From positions 1,550,001 to 1,614,000 of the forward strand of contig NZ_CP073096.1 of assembly GCF_030503735.1 (NCBI RefSeq): 64,000 bases of DNA, in the 5' to 3' direction. Below the pieces are notes generated by a model that saw only the letters and a list, made by a program, of their open reading frames with translations, had not been told where the DNA came from and searched no databases. This document shows positions 11,714 to 37,398 of the stretch, in pieces. The position numbers and the translations under genes were made by a program. The DNA is from Corynebacterium tuberculostearicum. Its GTDB lineage: Bacteria > Actinomycetota > Actinomycetes > Mycobacteriales > Mycobacteriaceae. Every line of letters starts with the position of its first letter. Within the stretch, counting starts at the first letter, position 1.

Positions 11714-12400
11714 CGGATTCGGAGTTTCTGCCACCAAGACATCCTTGACGGCCCCAAGGCGGGCCGACTTGCCGCCCCCGAGGATAATTTCCAGTTCCTC
11801 GCCGGGGCGGCATTGTTCTATGCATTGCCAAGGATATTCTTGGCGGGACACGTGTCGCCTCTCCTTGGCAAATAGGTGCAGGCCGTGGTCGAGAACCCCG
11901 ATAGCTTCGGAAAAGCGAAGAACAAAGACATAATCACCGAGCTCTTGCCGCTTGAGGCCTTCAAGGGCTGGGCGCTCGGTATTGAGCCGCATGAGGCTGG
12001 AGACTACTCCGAATCGGTGCTCAAACCCCTCCGTATCACGAATGGTGAAGGGGCGGCCGGGGCCGGTAGGGCGAATGGAATCATAGGCCCACACCACGGG
12101 CTGGGTATCGGGTCGTCGCACAATGATGTGGGTGGAAGTAGCGGTGATGCGGTAAGCAGGGGCGTCGGCAAGCACGAGCCACTCCCCCGCCGCAACGCGG
12201 CCGCCTTCTAAAGGTAGCAGGGGCGGGTGGACGGCCGCTTGGCGCTCCAATTCTGCTACCAGCTCCGTATCGCTAGCACCCCAACCGATTCCTCGATTAG
12301 CCAGCATGGCAAAGAAGGTGGGAAGGCTCAGATCGGGTTGGCCCTCCCAAGCGCGGCGGAGGGACTCGAGGGTGGGGTCGATGCGGGTGGGATCATCCAT
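11702..12400 (-). CDS. Conserved hypothetical protein near tuf
   Basis: 232 aa from ATG 12400, where the sequence turns from low-complexity Cys/Arg-rich to protein-like (MDDPTRIDPTLESLRRAWEGQ). No signal peptide or membrane segment. An N-terminal helical part with FFAMLANRGIGWGASDTELVAELER is followed by a mainly beta C-terminal half with two PH/GRAM-like stretches (ITATSTHIIVRRPDTQPVVWAYDSI and YVFVLRFSEAIGVLDHGLHLFA). I do not recognise a named family. Convergent with the Asp23 operon (12-base overlap) and upstream-adjacent to the tuf terminator. Confidence 0.7.
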   Translation of the reverse strand: MDDPTRIDPTLESLRRAWEGQPDLSLPTFFAMLANRGIGWGASDTELVAELERQAAVHPPLLPLEGGRVAAGEWLVLADAPAYRITATSTHIIVRRPDTQPVVWAYDSIRPTGPGRPFTIRDTEGFEHRFGVVSSLMRLNTERPALEGLKRQELGDYVFVLRFSEAIGVLDHGLHLFAKERRHVSRQEYPWQCIEQCRPGEELEIILGGGKSARLGAVKDVLVAETPNPLFG

Positions 12401-20467: not shown

Positions 20468-21082
20468 CTAAGCGCGCTGTTCACGGCCTGCGGCAAAGCG
20501 ATCCAAGGCACCGGTCTTCGCCAACGCCTTGACCACAAAGTAGCCCAACGCACCGGCCAAAATAGCACCAGAGACGCTCAGTGTAGACAGGTAAATAATC
20601 TTGAACTCAAAGCTTCGCGCTAGGTTGCCGGAGAGAAATAGCTCCAGAACAAATGCACCCCAACCGGCAGCCATGCCGGCCAAGATAGAAACCCCCAGAC
20701 CAAACTTACGGTAGAGGAAAATTGCCAAGATAATCTCCACACCAATGCCTTGTGCGAGGCCGGAGTACAGGGTGCTAATGCCCCACTGGGAGCCCAGCAC
20801 CGCAGAGACGGTTGCGGCGAGAACCTCCACATAGACAGCCGCACCTGGCTTGCGAATAATCAGGCCACCAAGCACACCGCCGATAAGCCAAATACCCGTA
20901 GCAATACCACCCAGACCCGGTGTTACGGCATCCATGGCCTCAAACCAGGCATAGCCCACCGCATTCCACCCTAGGAACACAAAGCCACTGGCCACTCCCA
21001 ACACGGATGCCACCACAATATCGACCACGCGCCAATTCAGGCTGCGCTTCGGGGCAGCGGACACACGTGTATTAGTAGTCAT
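20468..21082 (-). CDS. ECF transporter substrate-binding (S) component, YkoE family
   Basis: 204 aa from ATG 21082. Five to six membrane helices, with GFVFLGWNAVGYAWFEA and GLGGIATGIWLIGGVLGGLIIRKPGAA characteristic of the YkoE family, which binds thiamine or its hydroxymethylpyrimidine precursor. The open frame extends upstream into the TPP riboswitch, but GAGGGAGGAAATT immediately before ATG 21082 is the ribosome binding site and decides the start. First gene of the three-gene transporter operon. Confidence 0.9.
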   Translation of the reverse strand: MTTNTRVSAAPKRSLNWRVVDIVVASVLGVASGFVFLGWNAVGYAWFEAMDAVTPGLGGIATGIWLIGGVLGGLIIRKPGAAVYVEVLAATVSAVLGSQWGISTLYSGLAQGIGVEIILAIFLYRKFGLGVSILAGMAAGWGAFVLELFLSGNLARSFEFKIIYLSTLSVSGAILAGALGYFVVKALAKTGALDRFAAGREQRA

Positions 21083-21087
21083 AATTT

Positions 21088-21196
21088 CCTCCCTCTCGCC
21101 GGCATTATCCGGATCAGGTTCAACGGTTCGCCACAACATCTGTGGCATCTCAGCCTGACACAGCTGCAAAACAGAGCAGCGCGCAAGCACCCGTGA
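21088..21196 (-). promoter_or_regulatory. TPP riboswitch (THI element)
   Basis: On the minus strand the leader shows the two conserved halves of the TPP aptamer: GGCTGAGATGCC for the pyrimidine-binding helix, and ACCTGATCCGGATAATGCCG followed by GCGAGAGGGA for the pyrophosphate side. GGGTGC near 21195 opens P1. The aptamer ends directly at the ribosome binding site of the YkoE-like gene with no separate terminator hairpin, suggesting control of translation initiation by sequestering GGAGG. Confidence 0.93.
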
Positions 21197-21304
21197 ATTG
21201 TGCAATTTTCAATTACTTCGACCGCACTCCTTTAAAGGTGGCTGGCCAAAAGCTGCATTCATACTAGCAAAGTAGTTTAGCGGTGCGCCCTAGACATCGA
21301 AACA

Positions 21305-32361: not shown

Positions 32362-33666
32362 ATGACCTGCCTCATGTGGTTCCGCGATGACCTGCGCCTG
32401 CACGATAACCAGGCACTTTGCCGCGCGGCCGAAGCCGCCTCGCTTGGCGACGCCCCCTTGGTCGCCGTCGTCCTCGACGAGCCCGCCTATCCCGGCACCC
32501 GCCCGCTGGGCGGCGCGACCACGTGGTGGCGCGAGCGCTCCCTTTATTCCCTCGCCCGCGACCTCGCTGACCACGGCGTAGAGCTCATTCGCGCCGCCGG
32601 CGATGCCCGCGCAGAAATCCCACGCCTAGCCGCGGAGCTCGGCGCCACCACCGTAACCTGGACGCGCCGTTACCACGGTCCGCTGCGGGAGGTTGACTCC
32701 GCAGTCAAGGAAATCCTGACCTCTCGGGGGATTACTGCAACCTCTTCGCTCGGCTTTACCCTGGTCGAGCCATGGGAGGTCACCAATGGAAAGGGTCAGC
32801 CCTATAAAGTCTTTACTCCCTTTTCCAAGGCCGCAGCTTCTCAAGTAGCGGGCGATGAGCCTGTGGGAGTGCCGGAGATGGGGGCGTCGGCAAGCATTGC
32901 GTGCACCTGGCCCCGCCCCACCGAACCAGCGTGGGCCGCATCCCTAGCCGAGCACTGGACGCCCGGCGAGTCCGGCGCTCGGGAGCGACTAGCGCAGCTA
33001 GACCTAACTAACTACGCCCAGGAGCGCGATATCCCCGCCCTCAATGCCACCTCCCTGCTCTCGCCTCACCTGCGCTTTGGTGAGGTGTCCCCGCGTGAGG
33101 TCTGGTTCGCCGCGGCCGAGGAGCCCAAAGCCGCAAAGTTCCACTCCGAACTGCTGTGGCGGGATTTTGCCTGGCACCGCCTCTACCACCTGCCGAACCT
33201 CGCTACCGAGAACGTGAGGGAGAACTTCGACCGCTTCGATTGGTCCTGGGATGATCCCCGTCTCAAGGACTGGCAGGCCGGGAATACAGGAATTCCGCTC
33301 GTCGATGCTGGAATGCGCGAACTATGGGCCACCGGCTATATGCACAACCGCGTGCGCATGGTGGTGGGCTCCTTCCTCACCAAGAACCTAGGCATCCACT
33401 GGCGCCTGGGTGAGGAATGGTTCTGGGACACGCTGGTAGATGCCGATGCCGCCTCCAACCCGTTCAACTGGCAGTGGGTGGCAGGCTGCGGCGATGATGC
33501 CGCACCCTTCTTCCGCATCTTTAATCCAGAAACCCAAGCCAAACGCTTCGACCCCGATGGTGCCTACGTGCGCCGCTGGGCGCCGGCCCTTTCTGCCCCA
33601 CCCATTGTTGATCTGAAGGAGTCCCGCCAAGCCGCCCTCGATGCCTACGCGGAGATCAAGGACTAA
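32362..33666 (+). CDS. Cryptochrome/photolyase family protein (deoxyribodipyrimidine photolyase)
   Basis: 434 aa. N-terminal Rossmann domain MTCLMWFRDDLRLHDNQAL (antenna binding), then the FAD domain with LSPHLRFGEVSPREVWF, FHSELLWRDFAWHRLYH, WQAGNTGIPLVDAGMREL, GYMHNRVRMVVGSFLTKN and the Trp-rich WQWVAGCGDDAAPFFRIFNP. These match class I CPD photolyases, which split UV-induced pyrimidine dimers with blue light. Start ATG 32362 is the first codon of the typical N-terminus. Divergent from rplJ and 32 bases upstream of the SbnA-like gene, so possibly co-transcribed with it. Confidence 0.9.
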   Translation: MTCLMWFRDDLRLHDNQALCRAAEAASLGDAPLVAVVLDEPAYPGTRPLGGATTWWRERSLYSLARDLADHGVELIRAAGDARAEIPRLAAELGATTVTWTRRYHGPLREVDSAVKEILTSRGITATSSLGFTLVEPWEVTNGKGQPYKVFTPFSKAAASQVAGDEPVGVPEMGASASIACTWPRPTEPAWAASLAEHWTPGESGARERLAQLDLTNYAQERDIPALNATSLLSPHLRFGEVSPREVWFAAAEEPKAAKFHSELLWRDFAWHRLYHLPNLATENVRENFDRFDWSWDDPRLKDWQAGNTGIPLVDAGMRELWATGYMHNRVRMVVGSFLTKNLGIHWRLGEEWFWDTLVDADAASNPFNWQWVAGCGDDAAPFFRIFNPETQAKRFDPDGAYVRRWAPALSAPPIVDLKESRQAALDAYAEIKD

Positions 33667-33698: not shown

Positions 33699-34715
33699 AT
33701 GGGGCCAATGATGAGCCCACGGATTCATTCTCAACAACACCCGCCTATTGGCAATACCCCACTCATGCGAGTGGAGGCCATCAATCCCCGGCCGGATGTC
33801 CACCTCTATCTCAAACTCGAACAATTCAACCTCGGTGGTTCTGCCAAGGACCGCACCGCCCGGGCGCTAATCCATGTGGCCCTTGCAGCCGGCGATATCC
33901 ACCCAGGGTCGACGTTGGTGGAATCTTCCTCCGGCAACCTCGGCATGGCTCTAGCTCGCCAGGCCCCACTGCAGGGGATGAAGTTCCACTGCGTGGTGGA
34001 TCCGCGCGTCAACGCTTCTACGGTAGCGACCATGCGGGCCTACGGCGCGCACGTGGAGTTGCTCGACCACCCGGATCCCGAAACGGGCGATTGGCTCACC
34101 GCCCGTCGCACGCGCGTAGCCGAACTTTTGGAAGAGATTCCCGATTCTTTCAACCTCAACCAATATTCCAATGAAGCCGCCTTCCACGCCCACGCGGAGG
34201 GCACCATGGCCGAGATCCTGGATCAGCTCGGCCAGGCACCTACCCATCTGCTGGTGGCCATGAGCACTACAGGAACGCTTGGCGGATGCGTGCGCAAGCT
34301 CACTGAACTAGGCGCCGATACCCAAACCATTGGGGTGGATGCGGAAGGCTCCGTCCTCTTTGGAGGCGAACGCGGCACCCGCATGCTGCCCGGCTATGGC
34401 GCCGGAATAGTAACGGACCTCTCCACCAAGTTTTCTCCCTCTTCCGTCGAGCGCGTGCCCGATCTTGATGCCATCATTGCCGCCCGCAGGCTCGCCCATA
34501 CCGAAGGCTTGCTTCCCGGCGCTTCCGGCGGTGCCGTCATCGCCGCCTTCCAGCGCCTCGCGCCCACCCTGCCGGAGGGGGCCGAGGTGGTTGCCGTGCT
34601 ACACGACACCGGCCAGCCCTACCTCGACACCATCTACAACGATTCCTGGGTATGCGAGAACTTTGATATCTCTCCTGCGGAACTTGCCGCGCGCATCGAA
34701 GGGGCACCGCAGTGA
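33699..34715 (+). CDS. PLP-dependent cysteine synthase-like enzyme (SbnA-like)
   Basis: 338 aa, fold-type II PLP enzyme of the cysteine synthase / cystathionine beta-synthase family. LEQFNLGGSAKDRTARALI holds the Schiff-base lysine, SSSGNLGMALARQAP the substrate loop, STTGTLGG the phosphate-binding glycine loop, and LPGASGGAVIAAF the C-terminal motif. SbnA, the relative that makes a 2,3-diaminopropionate precursor from O-phosphoserine and glutamate, is the nearest functional model I can name, but plain cysteine synthase activity is not excluded. Its stop overlaps the next start (GTGA). First gene of a three-gene cassette. Confidence 0.8.
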   Translation: MGPMMSPRIHSQQHPPIGNTPLMRVEAINPRPDVHLYLKLEQFNLGGSAKDRTARALIHVALAAGDIHPGSTLVESSSGNLGMALARQAPLQGMKFHCVVDPRVNASTVATMRAYGAHVELLDHPDPETGDWLTARRTRVAELLEEIPDSFNLNQYSNEAAFHAHAEGTMAEILDQLGQAPTHLLVAMSTTGTLGGCVRKLTELGADTQTIGVDAEGSVLFGGERGTRMLPGYGAGIVTDLSTKFSPSSVERVPDLDAIIAARRLAHTEGLLPGASGGAVIAAFQRLAPTLPEGAEVVAVLHDTGQPYLDTIYNDSWVCENFDISPAELAARIEGAPQ

Positions 34716-36013
34716 CCTCCCTTAGCCATCCCCGCCGCGTAGCGATTATCGGCGGTGGCCCGCGCGGGCTATGGGCCGTAGAAGAGCTCATCGAGCGTGC
34801 CCGCATCCCACTCGATGTCACCGTCTTTGACCCATACCCCGCCGGTGCGGGGGCGGTCTATCGCCCGCAGCAACCGCCGCAGTGGCGCCTCAACGTCAAC
34901 TGCGACATCGTCACCACCGCGCACGATAGCTTCGACTCATGGCGCGCCCGCCGCGGGGAAGACGCCGCAGATGCCTTCCCTCCGCGCGCACAAGTGGGCC
35001 AGTTTCTTTCCGATACCTGGTCCGCTGCCCTGCACCGCGCCCCGGCACACGTACTCATCCGCCACCTGCCGCACCGCGTGAGCGAGGTAAACGCGGACGG
35101 AGACGGGTTTATGGTCGACGGCGCCCCCTTCGACGTAGTCCTCGTCTGCACCGGCCACGACCACCTCCACTCTGGAGCGTTGGTCCACAAACCCTCGCGA
35201 GTTCCAGTCACCGGTCTCTATTTCGGCGCCGATCTCCCTAGCGCCCCACGGCGCATTGGCGTGCGCGGTGCGGCCTTGAGCTTCATCGATGTCTGCATGC
35301 TGTATGGCGATACCGCAGCAACCATTTACCCGGTCAGCCGCAGTGGCCGCTTTATGGAGGTAAAACCCGCCCCAGATACACCGCTGCCGGAGGTTCCGGA
35401 ACGCTGGCGGCAGGCTTGTGCCCGTGTTTCCACCGCCGCAGATCTGCGCGAGATACTCATCGCGGCCGCGGGCGAGTTCGGCGAGTTTTCCACTGCGGAC
35501 CTGGCCGCCGTTATCGACGGCCAGGATTTCACTGGTGATGCCATCGCTGAGCTCGAGGCTTCCCTGCGCGCGGCCGAAGGTACCGGCCCGCTTACTCCAG
35601 CCGCGGCCGTGGGGGCGGCGTTTCGTGGGGTCTTCCAAGAATGCGTCGATTGGCACGGGGCGCATGGCCCCATGCCCGGATTCCGCGAGCTCTCCCGCAC
35701 CCTTGAGCGCGTGGCTTTTGGTCCGCCGCCGGTCACCGCTCGGCGCCTGCTCGAGCTCATCCACGTCGGCGTGGTAGATACACAGTTTTTGCGCGCGCCT
35801 GAACAGATTGATACCTGGCGGGAAGAAGGCGGAGTGGATGTGCTTATCGATGCCACCGTGGCTCCCCAAGCTATACCCTCTCCCTTCCACGATGTTCCTG
35901 GCGTGGTAGAAATTGGCCGAATGAACGAGCTTTCCTTACCCGGCCATGACTCTTTAAACCGTTCCGTGCACGATGACATTCCCCGCTGGGCTGAGAAAGT
36001 AGGAAACCCATGA
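34712..36013 (+). CDS. FAD/NAD(P)-binding protein (NAD_binding_9-type)
   Basis: 433 aa from GTG 34712. Residues 8-20 hold a dinucleotide fold VAIIGGGPRGLWAVEEL. VFDPYPAGAGAVYRPQQPPQWRLNVN is the characteristic segment of the PF13454-type family, and VVLVCTGHDH is the second glycine-rich turn. The C-terminal half (from about 230) is helical with GFRELSRTLERVAFGPPPVTARRLLE. Likely cytosolic oxidoreductase or monooxygenase-like enzyme. The substrate is unknown. It overlaps both neighbours by four bases, indicating that all three act in one pathway. Confidence 0.8.
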   Translation: MTSLSHPRRVAIIGGGPRGLWAVEELIERARIPLDVTVFDPYPAGAGAVYRPQQPPQWRLNVNCDIVTTAHDSFDSWRARRGEDAADAFPPRAQVGQFLSDTWSAALHRAPAHVLIRHLPHRVSEVNADGDGFMVDGAPFDVVLVCTGHDHLHSGALVHKPSRVPVTGLYFGADLPSAPRRIGVRGAALSFIDVCMLYGDTAATIYPVSRSGRFMEVKPAPDTPLPEVPERWRQACARVSTAADLREILIAAAGEFGEFSTADLAAVIDGQDFTGDAIAELEASLRAAEGTGPLTPAAAVGAAFRGVFQECVDWHGAHGPMPGFRELSRTLERVAFGPPPVTARRLLELIHVGVVDTQFLRAPEQIDTWREEGGVDVLIDATVAPQAIPSPFHDVPGVVEIGRMNELSLPGHDSLNRSVHDDIPRWAEKVGNP

Positions 36014-37398
36014 CCACCCATTCCACCCCTCCGCTGCCCGTCCATGGCACCGTCCCACTGCGCGCGCGGTGGGAGTCCTGGATGCGCGAGTTGATAGAGA
36101 GCCCGCAACAGGTCACGGGGCTAACCTCGCGCTACGGCTCACCGGTCAATGCGCTCAATCCCGCACCGCTGCGCCACAATGCCCAAGAGCTACTGGATGC
36201 TGGTGCTTCCCACGGCGTGGAGACCCAGGTATTTTTCGCACGCAAAGCCAATAAGGCGCTGTGCTTTGTCGATGCCGCCCGCGAGGCCGGGCTCGGCGTG
36301 GATGTAGCCAGTGAAAACGAGCTGCGCCAGGTCCTTAGCCGCGAAGTAGCGCCGGAACGCATTATCCTCAGCGCGGCTATCAAAACCGAAAGCCTTCTCC
36401 GCCTGGCCGTCTCGCAGGGCGTGACTATTTCTTGTGATTCGCGCGCAGAGTCCGCCCGCATCGCCGCCATTGCGCAGGATTTAAGAACCACCGCGCGGGT
36501 AGCACCTCGCCTTGCCCCCGATCCAGCTCACCTACCGCCCACACGCTTCGGGGAAAAGCTCAGGGCGTGGCGGCAGGTCGAGTGGCCGGAAAGCCTCCTT
36601 GTTGCCGGCGTCCACGTCCACCTACACGGCTATAGCGAGGCAGACAGGCGCACCGCCCTTGCAGAGGCAATCTCGTTAGTCGAGCACCTGCGCGCAGTAG
36701 GCCAGCCGGCGGGATTCATTGATATCGGTGGCGGGGTGCCCATGAGCTACCTCGAATCCCGCGAACAGTGGGAAAATTACCTCGAGTGCATCGCCTCTCA
36801 ACGCGCTGGTACCGGTGAACCGTTCACGTGGAAATCGGATCCGCTCTCCAATACCTATCCCTTCTGGCAGGAGCCTACGCGCGGCGAGTGGCTAGACCTG
36901 CTGCTATCGGGCAAGGTAACCGGCTACGGGCAAGCCGGCAAAGCCTTGCGCGAGCGCGATATCGCCCTGCATCTGGAGCCCGGCCGCAGCCTCCTCGATG
37001 GCTGCGGTGTCATCCTTAGCGAGGTGAGCTTCTTGAAGGAGCGCTCCGATGGCCTGCCGCTAATTGGTGCCGCGATAAACCGCACCCAGTGCCGCACGGC
37101 CGCCGATGACATCCTTCTGGATCCTCTCCTTGTCCCCACTGCTGGACCAGAAGGGGAAGTAGACCGCGTGCCACGCACCGGCTTTGTGGTCGGCGCCTAC
37201 TGCATTGAAGATGAGGTCATCTTGCGCCGCGAACTAGACTTCCCAGCCGGCATCGCCGTGGGAGATACCCTGGCCATTCCCAATACGGCGGGATACTTTA
37301 TGCACATCCTAGAGTCTGCCTCCCACCAGATCCCTTTGGCACGAAATGTCTACTTTGATGGCTCCGAATGGGTAGCAGATGATATTGACGCCGCGTAG
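36010..37398 (+). CDS. Y4yA-like PLP-dependent decarboxylase family enzyme (fold type III)
   Basis: 462 aa. Barrel domain begins near residue 40 (YGSPVNALNPAPLRHNAQELL). FFARKANKALCFVDAAREAG contains the PLP lysine, GLGVDVASENEL follows, VHVHLHGYSE and FIDIGGGVPMSY are phosphate- and ring-binding motifs, and EPGRSLLDGCGVIL is the ALR/ODC signature of the second domain. The family covers diaminopimelate, ornithine and arginine decarboxylases. The length and the insert around 265-310 point to the Y4yA subgroup. SbnH, which decarboxylates a citryl-diaminopropionate intermediate, is a functional analogue. A strong terminator follows. Confidence 0.8.
   Translation: MTTHSTPPLPVHGTVPLRARWESWMRELIESPQQVTGLTSRYGSPVNALNPAPLRHNAQELLDAGASHGVETQVFFARKANKALCFVDAAREAGLGVDVASENELRQVLSREVAPERIILSAAIKTESLLRLAVSQGVTISCDSRAESARIAAIAQDLRTTARVAPRLAPDPAHLPPTRFGEKLRAWRQVEWPESLLVAGVHVHLHGYSEADRRTALAEAISLVEHLRAVGQPAGFIDIGGGVPMSYLESREQWENYLECIASQRAGTGEPFTWKSDPLSNTYPFWQEPTRGEWLDLLLSGKVTGYGQAGKALRERDIALHLEPGRSLLDGCGVILSEVSFLKERSDGLPLIGAAINRTQCRTAADDILLDPLLVPTAGPEGEVDRVPRTGFVVGAYCIEDEVILRRELDFPAGIAVGDTLAIPNTAGYFMHILESASHQIPLARNVYFDGSEWVADDIDAA

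Follow-up and report, generated by a model that had tools for sequence, protein, structure and literature searches.

The question addressed here is what three overlapping genes of Corynebacterium tuberculostearicum make together. The genes lie in contig NZ_CP073096.1 (assembly GCF_030503735.1), within a stretch of 64,000 nucleotides (positions 1,550,001 to 1,614,000 of the forward strand) that we call the window and whose numbering is used below. An earlier note, made from the letters of the window alone, had proposed that the three products act together, in a manner resembling staphyloferrin B precursor synthesis, and form a diamino acid, opine-like or polyamine-like metabolite. The genes are:

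33699-34715, + strand: SbnA-like pyridoxal phosphate (PLP) synthase, 338 aa (PF00291, 202.8 bits), predicted to catalyze O-phosphoserine:amino acid beta-substitution

34712-36013, + strand: homologue of flavin adenine dinucleotide (FAD)/NAD(P)-dependent amine N-hydroxylases, FzmM/CreE-like, 433 aa, GTG start (PF13454, 104.7 bits)

36010-37398, + strand: Y4yA-like fold-type III PLP decarboxylase, 462 aa (PF02784, 93 bits)

This trio encodes a self-contained, widely conserved biosynthetic module in which known enzyme families are combined in a new way; no description of it was found in the available portions of the open-licence full-text literature. All three open reading frames (ORFs) are intact in 33699-37398 of the window, and the junctions, GTGA at 34712-34715 and ATGA at 36010-36013, confirm the overlaps of four bases each that had been described. 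Compared with three relatives, the genes are under purifying selection, with dN/dS values of 0.04-0.06 (gene 1), 0.13-0.14 (gene 2) and 0.08-0.10 (gene 3).

Genome contigs were scanned with a Y4yA profile and the best 80 of 287 relatives were kept; since the two peptide patterns employed in the scan were derived from trio-type proteins, the sample is skewed to trio-type Y4yA. The complete trio was present in 74 of the 80 loci, on a single strand and in the order SbnA-like enzyme, FAD enzyme, Y4yA. Among the remaining six, Y4yA stands without partners in L065, L066, L068 and L091, and L114 and L129 begin at contig ends. Because the order of the same genes is conserved in so many loci, chance linkage can be excluded, and natural fusions (SbnA-FAD in Gracilimonas, FAD-Y4yA in Phycicoccus) also show the trio behaving as a unit. 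Lack of co-occurrence outside the lineage had been named beforehand as one refuting outcome; the trio was found in the same order far beyond it, in at least six phyla by our own assignment from record titles. Its hosts belong to Pseudomonadota (alpha and gamma), Planctomycetota, Actinomycetota, Bacteroidota, Verrucomicrobiota (Pelagicoccus) and Balneolota-type genera, together with one metagenome-assembled genome of Acidobacteriota. In Sulfitobacter and Tsukamurella the trio is plasmid-borne.

The first enzyme was correctly described as SbnA-like. Its best NCBIfam match is the SbnA equivalog TIGR03945 (337.6 bits), and the closest solved structure by sequence in a PDB search is SbnA (5d84, E 5.6e-67). 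Arg136, Tyr156 and Ser189 of the window protein align with Arg132, Tyr152 and Ser185 of SbnA, a triad reported as key to phosphoserine binding in the available part of PMC12414870. All 93 trio proteins compared, from 92 loci and the window, retain it. The Ser185 position is Gly in five SbnA-like proteins of four non-trio Y4yA loci, and also in L143, a Corynebacterium locus described below. The Sulfitobacter trio member carries an SbnA annotation in its record. A free serine kinase-like gene lies directly upstream of the trio in three loci, and the protein from L055 matches 5x0b with E 5.4e-8 and SbnI with 0.009. The triad and the upstream serine kinase-like genes thus support O-phosphoserine as substrate, and from sequence we infer that gene 1 is an SbnA-like synthase using O-phosphoserine and an amino acid, which by analogy with SbnA would be glutamate.

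The middle enzyme is, as the earlier note held, not of the SbnB family. Its nearest characterised homologues, FzmM among them, are N-hydroxylases of primary amines. Trio flavoproteins share a full-length profile match and a fold with FzmM/CreE-type amino-acid N-hydroxylases, including the expected FAD, NADP and helical substrate domains. The catalytic Asn (FzmM Asn62; FzmM positions were mapped by hand from the alignment) is present in 55 of 55 flavoproteins, and basic residues are retained at the positions of Arg13 and Arg266; being kept near the flavin, they favour a carboxylate-bearing substrate. According to the available part of PMC10404684, Asn62 sits over flavin C4a and is catalytic, and FzmM N-hydroxylates the free amino acid aspartate. 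At least 52, 51 and 51 of the 55 flavoproteins carry other residues in place of Arg412, Asn413 and Arg416, respectively, in a tally outside which two of the five aspartate contacts of FzmM, Arg276 and Arg577, lie. Part of the FzmM substrate site is accordingly replaced, and with the aspartate-contacting Asn413 and Arg416 mostly gone these flavoproteins lack a mark of L-aspartate N-hydroxylases proper. Given the FzmM/CreE-type homology, N-oxygenation is the expected chemistry of this putative amine N-hydroxylase. On the Tsukamurella plasmid (L025:12001-13434) the flavoprotein is annotated only as hypothetical and from 12715, although the match begins at 12001 and the frame is open.

In the third enzyme, the family residues Arg326 (EPGR), Cys398 and Tyr429 are found in 95 of 95 trio proteins and Lys79 in 93, the other two having gaps. 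In a FastTree phylogeny the 95 trio and four solitary Y4yA proteins split from five metallophore-type Y4yA proteins with a support of 0.83. The trio type is marked by Asn357 (94/95), Gln360 (94/95) and His432 (95/95), where the metallophore-type proteins have Ser/Lys, Ala/Glu/Asp and Asp, and L143 has Ser, Leu and Asp. Asn357 and Gln360 fall outside the two scan patterns; Lys79 and His432 fall within them, so that conservation of these two in the 80 loci is partly a result of selection. The trio Y4yA resembles diaminopimelate decarboxylases, against which it scores higher than against 6knh, which we take to be SbnH. By record title the solitary members of the clade are all from planctomycetes, and in two of the four Ser replaces the Tyr of the HLxGY motif. 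R358 and R362 were considered as distal carboxylate binders and dropped, as Arg occurs in just 76/95 and 66/95 proteins.

From these assignments the following pathway is proposed. Gene 1 would join phosphoserine and glutamate to an adduct (ACEGA), and the Y4yA-like enzyme would strip off the carboxyl group beside the primary amine to give an N-(2-aminoethyl)-amino acid with its ethylenediamine unit. The FzmM-like flavoenzyme would then use NAD(P)H and O2 to place oxygen on the nitrogen of an amine, probably the primary one, yielding a hydroxylamine that is possibly taken further to an oxime, nitroso or nitro group. The product would probably be used intracellularly and may serve in stress. PLP-dependent decarboxylation requires a free alpha-amine, and the flavoenzyme, if it oxidises that amine, would therefore act after the decarboxylase; a different order could hold if its target were the secondary amine or the incoming amino acid. 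We hold with moderate confidence that phosphoserine-glutamate joining, decarboxylation and N-oxygenation are the three reaction types, and with clearly less that they take place in exactly that order; the substrates, the order of the second and third steps, the intracellular site and the role in stress are what we infer. The interpretation in the earlier note thus stands in part: the unit and its SbnA-like enzyme hold, and the homology to FzmM/CreE-type N-hydroxylases had been missed. As to the chemistry, N-oxygenation is expected in preference to forming an opine or merely releasing a diamino acid, and polyamine-like would apply only to the ethylenediamine unit.

The suggested role in stress comes from the neighbourhood of the trio. 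Catalase genes, ten of the long type and one of ordinary length (L073), occur in the flanks of 11 of the 80 loci. In about 202 Mb of 40 genomes, chosen so as to include all 11 of these loci, 49 matches above the cut-off were found, corresponding to about 0.16 expected in the 0.68 Mb of flanks. Over about six separate lineages, a grouping made here, the Poisson chance of this enrichment, tested only after it had been spotted by eye, is 2e-8. Other repeated neighbours, counted without background comparison, are DUF421 (10 loci), DUF3891 (6) and topoisomerase IB (4). A survey of flanking proteins that excluded four solitary, three cut or repeated and 11 near-duplicate loci covered 216 of 239 proteins, the other 23 having been dropped at alignment, mostly from high-GC loci with poor gene calls; the commonest families were short-chain dehydrogenases (10) and catalase (6), and DUF421, response regulators, PAS and histidine kinase domains also occurred. 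That the trio is a phylum-crossing pathway to an N-oxygenated ethylenediamine-type metabolite, kept in the cell and protecting against oxidative or related stress, is a tentative suggestion that may well prove wrong.

Apart from the two FzmM contacts outside the tally, several observations weigh against the proposed pathway. Gene order and fusions fit oxidation as the second step equally well. Gene 1 lies below the curated TIGR03945 cut-off (337.6 versus 349.95 bits), and the serine kinase-like proteins of L052 and L055 gave no Pfam match at 0.001. The window flavoprotein gave no match to 8cp2 in a single-sequence search and is, with 433 residues, the shortest of the 55 aligned rows (next 510). 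It is missing a TEGRGG-type segment beside the second dinucleotide site, a motif that the flavoproteins of 13 out of 17 same-genus loci (L028-L038, L040, L041) likewise lack, and its cofactor use or activity may therefore differ. PF13454 also includes E. coli YdhS, and 49 of the 55 flavoproteins match PRK09897 (best E 4.5e-15), the window protein with 23.3 bits against a cut-off of 783. AI-2E-family permeases were met three times and ABC permease domains twice among 115 flanking proteins, so that export is conceivable, and the link of the trio to stress is a correlation by neighbourhood.

The order SbnA, flavoenzyme, decarboxylase would also suit a pathway in which the flavoenzyme stands in for SbnB. 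Its target would be the secondary amine of ACEGA, oxidised either directly or via N-hydroxylation to a nitrone and hydrolysis. This would release 2-oxoglutarate together with either L-Dap or 3-(hydroxyamino)alanine, and decarboxylation by Y4yA would then give ethylenediamine or its N-hydroxy form. Since other Y4yA loci fill the oxidoreductase slot from different families, with opine dehydrogenase or ornithine cyclodeaminase (OCD) family proteins, it is plausible that non-homologous proteins have taken over one function. However, the nearest characterised homologues of the flavoenzyme are N-hydroxylases of primary amines, and we consider such a replacement unlikely. No OCD or opine dehydrogenase partner was found beside the trio by blastp (E 1e-6, three comparators, 99 loci), with the sole exception of an OCD-like ORF about 6 kb from the trio in L043. 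An ornithine cyclodeaminase in the own genome (G000:C1:794606-795517) is an improbable but biochemically conceivable SbnB partner; it is unlinked to the trio and lies beside a putative amino-acid permease ORF.

The trio might alternatively make an ethylenediamine-disuccinate- or rhizobactin-type aminopolycarboxylate that is secreted for zinc or iron uptake. Y4yA and SbnA-like partners do co-occur with exporter or importer genes in NGR234 (IucA/IucC, MFS), on a Mycobacterium avium plasmid (MATE) and in L143 (MATE, periplasmic binding protein, FecCD), rhizobactin has an ethylenediamine group (PMC7676072, available part), and AI-2E-family permeases adjoin three trio loci. On the other hand, a search of the ORFs from 99 loci with IucA/IucC, MFS, MATE and opine dehydrogenase comparators gave no match, and no siderophore transporter or synthetase was among the 25 commonest of 122 and 141 families of the 216 flanking proteins. 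The whole own genome has 0 matches to PF04183, in agreement with the earlier note, and a pathway of the nonribosomal peptide synthetase-independent siderophore (NIS) type was therefore rejected. A search of the window that did not extend to Zur sites gave a single sequence resembling a DtxR box, at 1802 with three mismatches, and control of the trio by DtxR was likewise rejected. As the trio SbnA and Y4yA residues are also unlike the metallophore-type ones, we regard a secreted metallophore as rather improbable. On the Sulfitobacter plasmid, TRAP and BCCT transporter genes lie a few kb downstream of the trio.

It is distinctly improbable that N-oxygenation comes first, i.e. that a free amino acid such as glutamate is what the flavoenzyme hydroxylates, after which SbnA adds the phosphoserine-derived aminoacrylate and decarboxylation follows. 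The PDB matches of gene 1 include the same-fold O-ureido-L-serine synthase 3x43, which we take to use an N-O nucleophile, and FzmM itself acts on a free amino acid. Against this, the SbnA triad gives no sign of an altered nucleophile, and the SbnA-flavoenzyme fusion is compatible with either direction. Ordinary sulfur or amino-acid metabolism, with gene 1 as a cysteine synthase (PALP fold, cysKM model 197.7 bits) and incidental neighbours, is scarcely credible in view of the higher SbnA score, the conserved triad and trio and the three other PALP proteins in the genome.

The proposed module with joining, decarboxylation and N-oxygenation is preceded in the window by one further gene on the same strand:

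32362-33666, + strand: DNA photolyase gene (PF03441/PF00875), possibly co-transcribed with the trio

Its stop codon lies 32 nt from the ATG of the SbnA-like gene, and both photolyase and trio run opposite to the ribosomal protein genes on either side (rplJ/rplL and rplA/rplK). A promoter and terminator scan gave counts at chance level. Elsewhere in the window, a thiamine pyrophosphate riboswitch is located at 21072-21204 on the - strand (60.2 bits).

Within the genus, a Y4yA match (E 1e-40 or better) was found in 54 of 121 genomes, own genome included; the copy in G133 is of the metallophore type and that in G149 has one internal stop. The trio is present in 16 of the 17 same-genus loci L028-L044, with FAD enzyme and Y4yA fused in 12 of them, and eight of the 12 fused loci are close to gltX, IclR or leuC. 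The unfused, window-type trio adjoins rplA/rplK in 10/10 loci seen, and in eight of these rplJ/rplL borders it at the opposite end; the stretches fetched for L136 and L137 do not reach that far. The photolyase lies upstream in the window and in five of nine related loci sharing the site. Elsewhere it is fragmented (L133), reduced to a stretch of 107 aa (L136) or without match (L030, L137), and because the trio is kept in these loci the photolyase is not part of the module. Downstream of the first trio by about 10-11 kb, beside IclR/leuC, a second, partly decayed trio was seen in L141 (14161-16397, G016) and L142 (14295-15567, G113). A lone N-hydroxylase-like gene with an open frame occupies L036:8589-10040 (G002) on the gltX side, in a stretch without SbnA or Y4yA match.

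That so compact a pathway keeps its gene order in Corynebacterium-like actinomycetes, planctomycetes and Bacteroidota alike, and does so with no evident transport genes of the siderophore type, suggests that its metabolite is fairly generally useful and has been overlooked because the gene names are either borrowed from siderophore synthesis or empty. With the N-hydroxylase assignment, what was a vague 'FAD protein' gains a reaction that can be tested. The tentative reading of a protective metabolite kept in the cell, if true, would give an intracellular role to N-O chemistry, which to our knowledge is otherwise known mainly from siderophores and antibiotics.

How does the trio compare with known systems? 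With the SbnA/SbnB/SbnH pathway to staphyloferrin B in Staphylococcus aureus it shares the first enzyme with its identical substrate triad, a fold-type III PLP decarboxylase and, in three loci, an adjoining SerK/SbnI-like gene. In contrast to that pathway, it has an N-hydroxylase-like flavoprotein instead of SbnB and lacks an NIS synthetase, and its decarboxylase is nearer to diaminopimelate decarboxylases than to 6knh. The L-alanosine pathway likewise combines diaminopropionate chemistry with N-hydroxylation, but the available parts of PMC11705231 and PMC7347517 attribute the hydroxylation of diaminopropionate to an enzyme resembling acyl-CoA dehydrogenases and nitrite supply to the CreE homologue, and describe no Y4yA-type decarboxylase. 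With the FzmM/CreE enzymes of the nitrosuccinate pathway the flavoprotein shares profile match, fold, catalytic Asn and the two basic positions; it differs in the replaced substrate residues, in its SbnA and Y4yA partners and, in the window copy, in the segment near the second dinucleotide site.

The Y4yA loci of the metallophore type (NGR234 y4yABCDE; OCD-Y4yA-PALP-MATE) also combine Y4yA with a neighbouring SbnA-like enzyme and oxidoreductase. We take the ethylenediamine-disuccinate (EDDS) genes of Amycolatopsis japonicum to be a locus of this type. The names of the EDDS genes did not occur in the available portions of PMC9252823 or PMC6103462. In these loci, unlike in the trio, the oxidoreductase is of the ornithine cyclodeaminase/opine dehydrogenase family, exporters are present in four of five annotated loci, the SbnA homologues have Gly for Ser185, and Y4yA is without Asn357, Gln360 and His432. 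L143:5490-16276, from the same-genus genome G133, holds ornithine cyclodeaminase, Y4yA, PALP, MATE, periplasmic binding protein, FecCD and ABC genes and is a candidate aminopolycarboxylate metallophore locus. L045:6468-13513 (pNGR234a) holds ParB-like, y4yA, cysteine synthase-like, opine dehydrogenase, IucA/IucC and MFS genes, a set that would suit synthesis of the rhizobactin type from ethylenediamine, alanine, lysine and malate.

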